This document shows, piece after piece, positions 17,055-27,847 of a DNA stretch of 62,360 bases. The stretch's first letter is position 1. Each line of letters begins with the position of its first letter. The notes below the pieces were generated by a model that saw only the letters and a list, made by a program, of their open reading frames with translations, was not told the DNA's origin and searched no databases. Location of the stretch: assembly GCA_020072765.1 (NCBI GenBank), contig JAIQGD010000023.1, positions 1-62,360 on the forward strand. The letters run 5' to 3'. The position numbers were made by a program, and so were the translations under genes. Origin of the DNA: Terriglobia bacterium. GTDB taxonomy: Bacteria > Acidobacteriota > Terriglobia > Acidiferrales > UBA7541.

Positions 17055-18242
17055 TCATTCATAGCGCAGAGATTCGACGGGCTGCAGCCGCGCGGCGGTC
17101 TTCGCGGGCAGGTAGCCGAACAGCACGCCCGTGGCGGCCGAGACCACAAGCGCCAGCACCACCGACAGCCACGAAATCGGAATGGTCACCCCGCCCGGCA
17201 CGGGCAGGAATCGCACCAGCGTCTCGATGAAGAAGGGAATCGCGATGGCCAGGGTGATGCCGGCAATGGCCCCGGTCCCGCTGATCAGCACCGCTTCGAG
17301 CAGAAATTGGTAGAGGATCTCTTTTTGCCGCGCCCCGATCGCCTTGCGAATCCCGATTTCGCGCGTCCGCTCCGTCACGCTCACCAGCATGATGTTCATG
17401 ATTCCCACGCCGCTGATGAACAGCGCCAGCAGCGCCACCAGCAGCAGCACGATCGTCATCGCCAGCGAGATGCGCCGCGACGTCTCCAGAATCGAGGAGA
17501 GGTTCTCGACCACGTACTCCGCCTCGGGCCGGTGGCGCGCCTTCAAGATCTCGCTGACCTCCCGCGTCGCCAGCGCTACATTCTCGGGCCGGTTCGCCTG
17601 CGCGTACAGCGTCACGATGAAGGCGTCTCCCGTGTAGTACTTGATCAGCCCGTACGGCACCAGCACCGAATCCGTGCGAATCTCCGACTGGCCGAATGTT
17701 CCGATGCGCTCCCGGAACACCCCAATCACGGTCAGGCTCAGCTCGCCTACATGGAGGCTTTGTCCGATCCGGTTGCCCGGCTGCAGCCCGGTTTCCGCCA
17801 GGTGCTCCGAAATCACGCACACCTTGCTCACCGCCGAAAAGTCGCTGTCGTCGAAATACCGCCCGCGCTCGATGACCAGGTTGCGGATCTTTTGAAATCC
17901 CGGTGTCACGCCGATCAAGCCTACCGGCCACGCCTTCCCGTTGGCCACCACGGTCATGGGCAGATCGTTCGTGCCGGCCACCTCCACGACGTGGCGGGCG
18001 CTTTGCTGGATCGCCTCCACGTCGCTCAGCGAGATCTGGTCGGCCAGGCTGATCGTTTGCGAGGAACTGGATTGCGCCAGCGACGCATACACGATGTTGG
18101 ACCCCACCGCCTCGATCTGCGCGCTCACATACTTCTTGCCGGTCAGCGCCACCGTCACCACCAGCACGATGCAGGCGCTCCCGATCACGACGCCCAGCAT
18201 CGTCAGCGCGGCGCGCACTTTATTCGCCCGCAGCGCTTCCAC
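17055..18242 (-). CDS. MacB-like ABC transporter permease (FtsX/MacB_PCD)
   Basis: The 395-residue protein has one membrane helix at the N-terminus (LTMLGVVIGSACIVLVV), a periplasmic MacB core domain of about 220 residues, and three C-terminal helices. ERTREIGIRKAIGARQKEIL is the cytoplasmic coupling segment that contacts the ATPase. No ATP-binding subunit gene lies beside it. The GTG at 18242 has GGAG seven bases upstream. However, residues in frame further upstream also look like the usual N-terminal helix, without any ATG before the stop codon inside the adjacent inverted-repeat element. The N-terminus may have been altered by that insertion. Confidence 0.78.
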   Translation of the reverse strand: MEALRANKVRAALTMLGVVIGSACIVLVVTVALTGKKYVSAQIEAVGSNIVYASLAQSSSSQTISLADQISLSDVEAIQQSARHVVEVAGTNDLPMTVVANGKAWPVGLIGVTPGFQKIRNLVIERGRYFDDSDFSAVSKVCVISEHLAETGLQPGNRIGQSLHVGELSLTVIGVFRERIGTFGQSEIRTDSVLVPYGLIKYYTGDAFIVTLYAQANRPENVALATREVSEILKARHRPEAEYVVENLSSILETSRRISLAMTIVLLLVALLALFISGVGIMNIMLVSVTERTREIGIRKAIGARQKEILYQFLLEAVLISGTGAIAGITLAIAIPFFIETLVRFLPVPGGVTIPISWLSVVLALVVSAATGVLFGYLPAKTAARLQPVESLRYE

Positions 18243-18323
18243 CGCCAGGCTCCACGTCTCCGGCCAGCTGATGCGTGTATCCGCCAGAACTCCCCCTTCC
18301 GGTCTTCCCGCAGGACTCTTCGA

Positions 18324-18493
18324 TTAACAGGATGCTGAAAAACTCTGCGAGGTTTGTGGGTCGCGGCTTCAGCGCGCCGTTTGCGTCCCGGACAGCCGTC
18401 GGGACCGCGACATAAGCACTGCACAATCCATGGGGCTTTAGCCCCTGAAGCTCCCTGAAGCTCCCTGAAGCGTCTGTTTCAGCACCCTGTTAA
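18324..18493. repeat. 170-bp MITE-like element with 17-bp terminal inverted repeats
   Basis: The ends are TTAACAGGATGCTGAAA (18324-18340) and, inverted, TTAACAGGGTGCTGAAA (18477-18493), differing at one base. The interior has a GGGGCTTTAGCCCC palindrome and three tandem copies of a 10-base CTCCCTGAAG-type unit (18444-18473). No open frame codes for a transposase. A diverged relative occurs at 27655-27841. Such elements move with enzymes supplied from elsewhere. Confidence 0.75.
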
Positions 18494-18530
18494 GATGCAG
18501 CGTCTCACCCGGAGATGCTTGCGGGATGAT

Positions 18531-19847
18531 CTATCCCGCCGCCGCTTCTTCGGTCGCCAGCTCGGGGATCTCGATACGAATCTGCGTCCCCGTTCCTTCT
18601 TGGCTGTGAATGTTCATCGCAAACTGATTCCCGTAGAGAAGCCGCAACCGCTCGTGCACGTTGCTGATCCCGATGCCGCCTCCGTACACCTCCGCCAGGC
18701 GCTCGGGCGGCATCCCCATCCCGTTATCGTCAATTTCAATGAACAGCCGGCCGTCGCGCCGCTCGGTGCGAAGATGGATTTGCCCTCCCTCCAGGCGCGG
18801 CGCCAGCCCGTGCTTGATCGCATTCTCGACAATGGGCTGCAGCAACATGCTGGGCACAAACCAATCCAGCGATGCTTCGTCGATCTCTTTGAAGAACTGC
18901 AGCTTGTCCCGCCCGAAGCGGATCACTTCGATGTCCAGGTAGTCGTCGATGAACGCCAGCTCTTCCCGCAACGGAACGAACGTCTCATGCTTCCGCAGCA
19001 GCCGCCGCAGGATGTTCGATAGCTTCAGCACCACGCCCCGCGCCATGTCCGGATCGAAACGGATCAGCGACGACACGGTGTTCAGCGTGTTGAACAGGAA
19101 GTGGGGATTGATCTGGCTGGTCAGCGCGTCCATACGCGCTCTCAGAAGCAGCTGCTGGTTCTGCTCCAGGTTCATCTCGATGCGCGTGTTGTTCCAGATC
19201 TTGACGGCCATGGCCACGCACATCACCGAGGAGAGAACCACCAGCGCTGCGTAGCCCCAGTTGCTGGGCCGAATCAGGAAGACCCAGTTCGAAGGAAGCG
19301 CGTTGGCCATCTCGATCAACGCCACTTCGAACGCCACGCACGCAAACAGCGGCAGCATGGCCCAGTGCCCCTTGCGATCCCGCACCAGCCTCCACAGCCA
19401 CTGCGGGATGCCCAAAAAAAGAAACGGCCCGAAGTGCCAGATGTCTTCTTTCTCCGGCATCCCGTCGCGAATCACGCCCGCCAGCAAACCCACCAGGGCC
19501 GCCATCGGGGCCGACAACCATTCATGGAATCCAAACGGGAGCAGGCTGATGAGCGACCCACCGAGCAGGCCGACAATCCGGCCGCCGATCAAACCCATCA
19601 GAAACGAGCCTTCCAGCGTCAGATCGAAGAACCGGTAACCCCCGACCAGGCGCAGCATCACGCCGATGGCCAACGGCGGCACCAGGAACAGCAGCAACAT
19701 CACTTTCTGATCGGAGTCGCGCTCCTCGGTAAACACCAGCTTGCGAAAAGACCGGAACCGCACCAGCAGCGCCGCCAGCGCCGCGGCGAAGCCCACCTTC
19801 AGGACCAGCGTGAACAGCAGGTCCCGCCCTTCCAGAAGTGTGTCCAT
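18531..19847 (-). CDS. LytS-type sensor histidine kinase
   Basis: A 438-residue membrane sensor kinase. Residues 10-215 hold about six hydrophobic segments of the 5TM LytS/YehU type with the Gly-rich LMGLIGGRIVGLLGG stretch. A short coiled segment leads to the His_kinase domain, whose phospho-acceptor is His249 in INPHFLFNTLN. The ATP-binding part shows PIVENAIKHGL (N box) and GGGIGISNVHERL (G box). It would pass phosphate to a LytTR response regulator, but none lies in this neighbourhood. The start codon is an ATG at 19847, 86 bases from the end of the upstream kinase gene. Confidence 0.88.
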   Translation of the reverse strand: MDTLLEGRDLLFTLVLKVGFAAALAALLVRFRSFRKLVFTEERDSDQKVMLLLFLVPPLAIGVMLRLVGGYRFFDLTLEGSFLMGLIGGRIVGLLGGSLISLLPFGFHEWLSAPMAALVGLLAGVIRDGMPEKEDIWHFGPFLFLGIPQWLWRLVRDRKGHWAMLPLFACVAFEVALIEMANALPSNWVFLIRPSNWGYAALVVLSSVMCVAMAVKIWNNTRIEMNLEQNQQLLLRARMDALTSQINPHFLFNTLNTVSSLIRFDPDMARGVVLKLSNILRRLLRKHETFVPLREELAFIDDYLDIEVIRFGRDKLQFFKEIDEASLDWFVPSMLLQPIVENAIKHGLAPRLEGGQIHLRTERRDGRLFIEIDDNGMGMPPERLAEVYGGGIGISNVHERLRLLYGNQFAMNIHSQEGTGTQIRIEIPELATEEAAAG

Positions 19848-27654: not shown

Positions 27655-27841
27655 CAGGATGCTTGCCCGCCTTTGTAGCAGCCGCCTTTAGGCGGGCGCT
27701 TTGGTCTTGTGCGTCGCGGCTTTACAGCATGAGGGAAAAGGGCGATTTTTAGGAGGCCGGGGCTTCAGCCCGGGCGTAACTTGCCTGGAATCAGGAGGCC
27801 TTAGCCCCTCAAGCTCCCGGAACCGTCTCTTTCAGCACCCA
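27655..27841. repeat. Diverged relative of the 18324 element, with palindromic insert
   Basis: The right half (27803-27841) aligns with the right end of the element at 18324-18493, including the AGCCCCT-CAAGCTCCC and CTTTCAGCACCC stretches, and the left edge has the matching CAGGATGCT. Inside lie a GCCCGCC/GGCGGGC hairpin (27664-27697) and a TTTGTAGCAGCCG segment akin to repeats at 52 and 61 kb. The terminal repeats are no longer intact. No gene is seen. Confidence 0.6.
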
Positions 27842-27847
27842 GCGAGC

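Follow-up and report, generated by a model that had tools for sequence, protein, structure and literature searches.

A small IS5-type mobile element in the histidine kinase–permease intergenic spacer of a Terriglobia bacterium, and the recurrence of its two-palindrome interior under other ends

Background

In the stretch of Terriglobia DNA analysed here (62,360 nucleotides, referred to below as the window), a 170-base segment bounded by inverted repeats lies in the spacer that separates the genes of a histidine kinase and a permease. A first-pass annotation, made from the sequence alone, described it as an element with near-perfect 17-bp terminal inverted repeats that close on TTAA, and suggested that it may have altered the 5' end of the permease gene. 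This raises the question of what kind of element it is, how it would have been moved to this site and whether its arrival changed the neighbouring genes.

Results

Anatomy of the element

The terminal arms at 18324–18340 and 18477–18493 were 17 nt each and 94% complementary, in agreement with the repeats first described for the 170-bp stretch. The closing TTAA was also present; it proved, however, to be a 4-bp target-site duplication instead of a part of the inverted repeat. With the outer TTAA assigned to the duplication, the inverted repeat proper becomes CAGGATGCTGAAAAA / CAGGGTGCTGAAACA and the element proper occupies 162 bp (18328–18489; Table 1). Its supposed lack of coding capacity was borne out, as no open reading frame of 80 or more amino acids was found inside the element, and the permease frame contained three stops across the element and its duplication. 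The interior tandem 10-base units were likewise found as described: the window copy corresponds to a 152-bp form of the family with one extra 10-nt unit (seen in 0 of 20 other aligned copies), which explains the tandem repeats.

Table 1. Positions of the element, its parts and neighbouring features in the window, and end sequences of related elements
Feature	Position	Strand	Basis or remark
MacB_PCD/FtsX permease gene	17055–18287	-	Pfam; likely CTG start at 18287, inferred from orthologue alignment
Left target-site duplication TTAA (YTAR type)	18324–18327		Flank identity peaks at four bases, 39 copies
Left terminal inverted repeat CAGGATGCTGAAAAA	18328–18342	+	
Hairpin 1, arms GTCGCGG / CCGCGAC, enclosing a 32-nt inner hairpin module (about 18374–18405)	18360–18411	+	Alignment of 120- and 152-bp copies; covariation over relatives
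Hairpin 2, GGGGC-TTTA-GCCCC	18432–18445	+	Alignment of copies; covariation over relatives
Three 10-nt units, one unit beyond the other 20 aligned copies	18443–18472	+	
Right terminal inverted repeat CAGGGTGCTGAAACA, read on the - strand	18475–18489	-	
Right target-site duplication TTAA	18490–18493		
Histidine kinase gene (His_kinase, HATPase_c)	18531–19847	-	Pfam
Second, composite copy	27655–27842	+	One element's left arm as far as the hairpin 1 loop, followed by a second element; by eye
B-type ends, GAGTCTGTGTG			
F-type ends, TAGTGTCCTGAGTCGTAAGTTC			
J-type ends, AAGCTGTTGCATAACC			

Copies of the family and their flanks

The genome is available as a draft assembly of 152 contigs (96.6% complete), in which the terminal 15-nt pattern occurred at 60 places with up to one mismatch, compared with 0 places for the same pattern read backwards as a control. 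Searches by blastn returned at least 46 matches including the element itself (40 of 152 first-look candidates scored), and a covariance model built from ten 120-bp copies returned at least 92 (150 of 3553 first-look candidates scored), 73 of them spanning the whole model; both counts are lower bounds because only part of the first-look candidates was scored. The genome-wide count proposed by the first-pass annotation thus gave far more than two copies. Members of the element's own subfamily were mostly of a 120-bp or a 152-bp form, with a few others of 83, 186 and 188 bp, and the 152-bp form differs from the 120-bp form by a 32-nt hairpin module that it carries within hairpin 1. The second copy in the window matched the covariance model at 27725–27842 and had outer flanks CTAG/CGAG.

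Outside this genome, a scan of an 84,980-species collection, from which the own record may be left out, matched a 29-base pattern (one free position) from the 152-bp form's module in a single record. This record (L063), an independent Acidobacteriota metagenome-assembled genome (MAG), carried a 152-bp copy with CTAA on both sides and further matches to the element elsewhere in its genome. No match was obtained in a plasmid collection. With 88 candidates scored in each of 41 genomes, the own one among them, model matches at 1e-4 were present in at least 30, and YTAR followed by the terminal pattern with up to one mismatch was present in 18 of 61 genomes, again including the own.

Target-site duplication was analysed in the 39 of 73 full-length matches that had IS5-type ends on both sides (each end within 4 mismatches of 12 scored positions). 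Left and right flanks were identical at the four adjacent bases in 31, 30, 28 and 26 of the 39 copies, as against 1 to 16 copies at the eleven other offsets tested. All four flanking bases were identical in 13 copies (permutation mean 4.0, maximum 11 in 20,000 permutations of right flanks), a further 17 matched at three of four bases and nine did worse. In the 14 copies with YTAR on both sides, the Y was the same in all 14 and the R in 12, a pattern that favours a true 4-bp duplication over a TA duplication with fixed end bases; IS5 is described as duplicating YTAR (PMC10359306). Flanking duplications, which the first-pass annotation had named as a point to check, are therefore present as TTAA on both sides of the element itself and are supported at 4 bp by the flank profile and the permutations. 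According to a simple gene caller for which four genes of the window served as training set, 23 of the 39 copies lay between co-directional genes, 11 between convergent and two between divergent genes, one was intragenic and two were at stretch edges.

A transposase with matching ends in relatives

The same annotation had suggested looking for a transposase with the same ends, and such genes were found in relatives, although not in the own genome. In one relative (L064), ends 1332 bp apart with flanks CTAA/CCAA enclosed a transposase gene with one in-frame stop (TAG); read through the TAG, its product matched NCBIfam NF033581 (IS5 family) at 290.7 bits (cut-off 140). A 1331-bp unit in L105, with CTAG on both sides, contained a transposase match without stops that was 61% identical to the L064 transposase, and a 437-bp unit in L073 had matching ends together with a transposase C-terminus. 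By eye, the miniature element and these insertion sequences (ISs) were similar only at the ends, their interiors being unrelated.

No matches to the L064 protein at 1e-10 or to NF033581 at E 1 were obtained in the own genome, so the source of the transposase is taken from the relatives; the source IS has presumably been lost from the own genome or was left unassembled. Such an IS in the same genome would be useful evidence but is not a requirement for a MITE. Two PF01609 matches in the own genome corresponded to an ISAs1-family protein and to a weak, broken one. The ISAs1 transposase was rejected as the mover, as no such ends were found at its locus within 4 mismatches.

Two further observations concern the terminal pattern. 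In genome G020 (L066, L067, L069), many terminal-pattern matches lay ~120 bases from a contig end and faced it; the three matches read had a sequence in common, suggesting that a multicopy IS was lost in assembly. In other genomes (L071, L072, L074, L076, L082, L083), the same ends enclosed a GTCATTCCGAG-type palindrome, not the two-hairpin core.

The kinase–permease spacer and the permease start

Nineteen loci from relatives (L123–L141) were examined. In ten of them, all of the same genus, the permease directly follows the kinase or the C-terminal part of it. The element was found in none of these ten loci (a model search of the ten plus the own locus matched the own locus only). Their spacers measured 101 to 236 bases; that of the window measured 291, which falls to 125 once the element and one duplication are subtracted.

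The location first described, between a permease with an uncertain start and a histidine kinase gene, was confirmed. In the window permease the first ATG, GTG or TTG is a GTG at 18242, and alignment by eye placed an NTG codon at the permease start in 11 of 11 loci, window copy included (CTG in seven, TTG in three, GTG in one), preceded in most of the 11 by a purine-rich, ribosome-binding-like stretch. Because an ATG (4/11) or a GTG (1/11) is also found a few codons downstream of this NTG, the start is an assigned one, and on the alignment the window permease likely begins with CTG at 18285–18287. A simple codon-usage caller with CTG allowed also placed the start at 18287.

The uncertain start is common to the genus and is thus not a product of the insertion. 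The CTG lies 36 bp from the duplication, which places the element upstream of the likely start. The proposed alteration of the permease 5' end was consequently not supported, given the element-free gene order in all ten relatives, the NTG start throughout and the distance to the duplication; we conclude from these comparisons that the insertion would have left the permease N-terminus unchanged. The neighbouring genes were left intact by the insertion.

Conserved interior hairpins

In an alignment of 21 copies, departures from the commonest letter made up 8 of 420 cells in hairpin 1 and 45 of 630 cells in the ends (Fisher p = 8e-5, with cells of related copies not being independent). The excess conservation also held for the 20 copies in which one end or both were near-perfect (7/400 versus 40/600). 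Hairpin 2 was no better conserved than the ends (25 of 294 cells), mainly on account of one pair that is split between G-C (11 copies) and C-G (10). Within these 21 family copies there was little covariation, with both-sided changes at 1 of 34 pairs; the strong signal comes only with the relatives.

A wider alignment comprised 95 matches, drawn from 87 chosen loci (27 in the own genome and 60 from relatives; two of the 95 are opposite-strand readings of counted copies). Pairing was seen in 98.3% of hairpin 1 cells and 95.8% of hairpin 2 cells, figures that lean towards the model to which the alignment was fitted. It fell to 37–52% when partners were slid by 1–3 columns. Both-sided changes affected 7 of 8 pairs in hairpin 1 and 4 of 5 in hairpin 2, and the observed covariation score was reached by 0 of 500 shuffles. 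Hairpin 1 summed to 112 both-sided versus 8 one-sided changes; this scarcity of wobble intermediates suggests a DNA palindrome more than an RNA.

These properties would also be compatible with a role as a functional RNA in the kinase–permease spacer (riboswitch, attenuator or terminator): hairpin 1 is better conserved than the ends, the stems covary, and the fold was stronger than that of shuffled sequences on both strands (z = -2.4 for +, -3.1 for -). Such an RNA would, however, be missing from all ten orthologous spacers, the only feature of the window to reach an Rfam gathering score was a tRNA, and no terminator-like or promoter-like site was found in 18240–18560. The 23 copies between co-directional genes were moreover evenly divided, with 11 on the gene strand and 12 against it, and we consider an RNA function very unlikely. 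Still less likely is a REP/BIME-type palindrome spread by a Y1 (RAYT) transposase, which the two interior palindromes and two Y1_Tnp matches in the own genome might suggest, but which does not agree with 4-bp duplications and IS5-type ends; in addition, perfect stems of seven or more pairs within about 350 bases of the two Y1 matches differed in sequence, and the single core-like hairpin in their vicinity was about 1.2 kb away. A chance inverted repeat or assembly artefact, for which the draft state of the genome is the sole argument, is refuted by the many dispersed copies with their own flanks, the CTAA-flanked copy of the independent MAG and the empty reversed-pattern control.

One core under several kinds of ends

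The two-palindrome interior recurs in relatives under at least four end types, with mixed-end and nested copies and a loop module of 32–34 nt. Loose end typing of the 73 full-length matches in the own genome gave IS5/IS5 in 41, B/B in four and F/F in three, mixed ends in six (F left/IS5 right in five, B left/IS5 right in one), and one or no typed end in 19. On inspection by eye, four of the F/IS5 copies (C31, C106, C123, C124) had a plausible IS5-type right end, while C72:22266 looked like a false call. Sixty matches from relatives were typed as B/B (18), IS5/IS5 (9), J/J (6), B/IS5 (1), one typed end (13) and none (13); they were picked among the full-length matches listed, the first 20 for genome spread and the other 40 roughly in list order, and hence are not a random sample. 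In 4,000 random windows, single-end calls numbered 537 for IS5-type, 35 for B, 16 for F and 4 for J ends, which marks the end typing as loose and one-ended IS5 calls as weak. The same hairpin 1 stem, GTCGCGGC, was found under both IS5 and B ends, and another, GCCGGGGC, under both F/F and F/IS5 ends.

Nested copies were observed inside the hairpin 2 loop of another element (C68:97198) and inside hairpin 1 loops (C12:43735, C76:5623). Composites, including C39:2670, C12:42292 and the second window copy, ran by eye from a left arm to a hairpin loop and then into a second element, and the outer flanks of these three agreed at three of four bases. The inner module pattern had 35 exact matches in the own genome, 18 of the GGACAG type; the 17 of these 18 that were listed all lay in hairpin 1. 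The remaining 17 of the 35 were all in hairpin 2 context, where a stem of at least five pairs closed across the module in 16 of 17 and the modules adjoined, by eye, right ends of several types.

General targeting of hairpins by IS5-type copies was not supported: 5 of 48 sites had at least 4 of 6 flanking pairs versus 10.2% of 3,085 control sites, a control inflated by the presence of these repeats in the control loci. In an earlier test, at least 5 of 8 pairs were seen at 2 of 39 sites (against 3.0% of 790 YTAR sites), and a shift-tolerant score gave 3 of 39 (against 4.4%). B-type ends showed a partial excess, with at least 4 of 6 flanking pairs at 11 of 28 sites and duplications agreeing at three or four of four bases in 14 of 28; of the two end types tested, the loop-centred excess was seen in the B type only. 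Elements with these GAGTCTGTGTG-type ends were noted in hairpin loops at five loci of relatives (L254, L240, L291, L247, L261), with flanks resembling TTTA, TTCA or TAAA.

Discussion

The 170-base stretch is a real small mobile element, an IS5-type miniature inverted-repeat element (MITE), and locally an ordinary one. It belongs to a dispersed family, has the ends and the 4-bp YTAR duplication of its type and is absent from orthologous sites, and a relative carries an IS with matching ends around an uninterrupted transposase frame. Very probably, then, it is a non-autonomous transposon that was moved by an IS5-family transposase and persists as a tolerated passenger. The transposase of an IS5-family IS would recognise the ~15-bp ends and insert the element at a YTAR site and thereby duplicate four bases; in this case the landing site would have been a TTAA in the kinase–permease spacer, upstream of the likely permease start, where the element would have remained as a tolerated passenger. 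Movement by this kind of transposase is deduced from sequence comparison, and we infer that the insertion was neutral.

The interest of the family lies in its shared core and not in the local insertion. It is possible, and we propose it tentatively, that the core is itself the mobile unit, served by different transposases: carried under IS5, B, F and J ends within one order (probable Acidobacteriota) and in at least one member of the wider class, it would swap ends by recombination or nested insertion and be kept palindromic by a DNA-level process, its loops serving as landing sites for the next element and for the 32–34-nt hairpin module. Either recombination or a nested insertion in which half an element is lost could bring about such an end swap. 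MITEs of IS5 type are already known. The novelty would lie in a core that moves between end types, themselves presumably recognised by different transposases, and whose own hairpins act as targets. If true, this would explain how MITE families diversify without a lasting relation to one parent IS, and would offer a testable system in which a DNA palindrome, rather than an RNA, is the conserved part.

Among the titles listed in a search of the open literature, none dealt with such elements in Acidobacteria; those returned included one on IS6/IS26 and one on a bioreactor. The term 'MITE' is absent from the text of the Solibacter genome paper (PMC3174227). Tyrosine-transposase genes flanked by inverted repeats are described for Koribacter in a survey of palindromic repeats (PMC3733652); we regard these as a different thing.

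With IS5-family ISs the element shares the 4-bp YTAR duplication (PMC10359306) and ends that match those of relatives' ISs with an NF033581-type transposase; it differs in being without a transposase, in measuring 120–162 bp in most copies and in an interior unrelated to that of the IS. The Correia/NEMIS elements of Neisseria are similarly non-coding and dispersed, and come in two related sizes set apart by an internal block (about 107 and 155 bp, PMC2229807, compared with 120 and 152 here). Their ends, however, carry TA according to a table in that source, whereas ours carry YTAR, and the internal block described here is a hairpin module that lies in the loop of a hairpin. In Streptococcus pneumoniae, RUP is also short, and its ends match IS630-Spn1, which is thought to be its mover, but it is of IS630 type with TA, and a core shared across end types is not mentioned for RUP in the relevant passages (PMC2229807). 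Insertion of mobile DNA into palindromes has a parallel in the REP sequences targeted by IS1397, ISKpn1 and IS621 (PMC1525189), the difference being that the palindromes here are carried by the mobile elements themselves. Finally, the TIMEs, mosaic Tn3-derived miniature elements, resemble this family in placing non-autonomous ends around varied cores, but have Tn3 ends and 5–6-bp duplications; as described in PMC4133298, they combine varied cores with one end type, whereas the family described here combines one core type with several end types.
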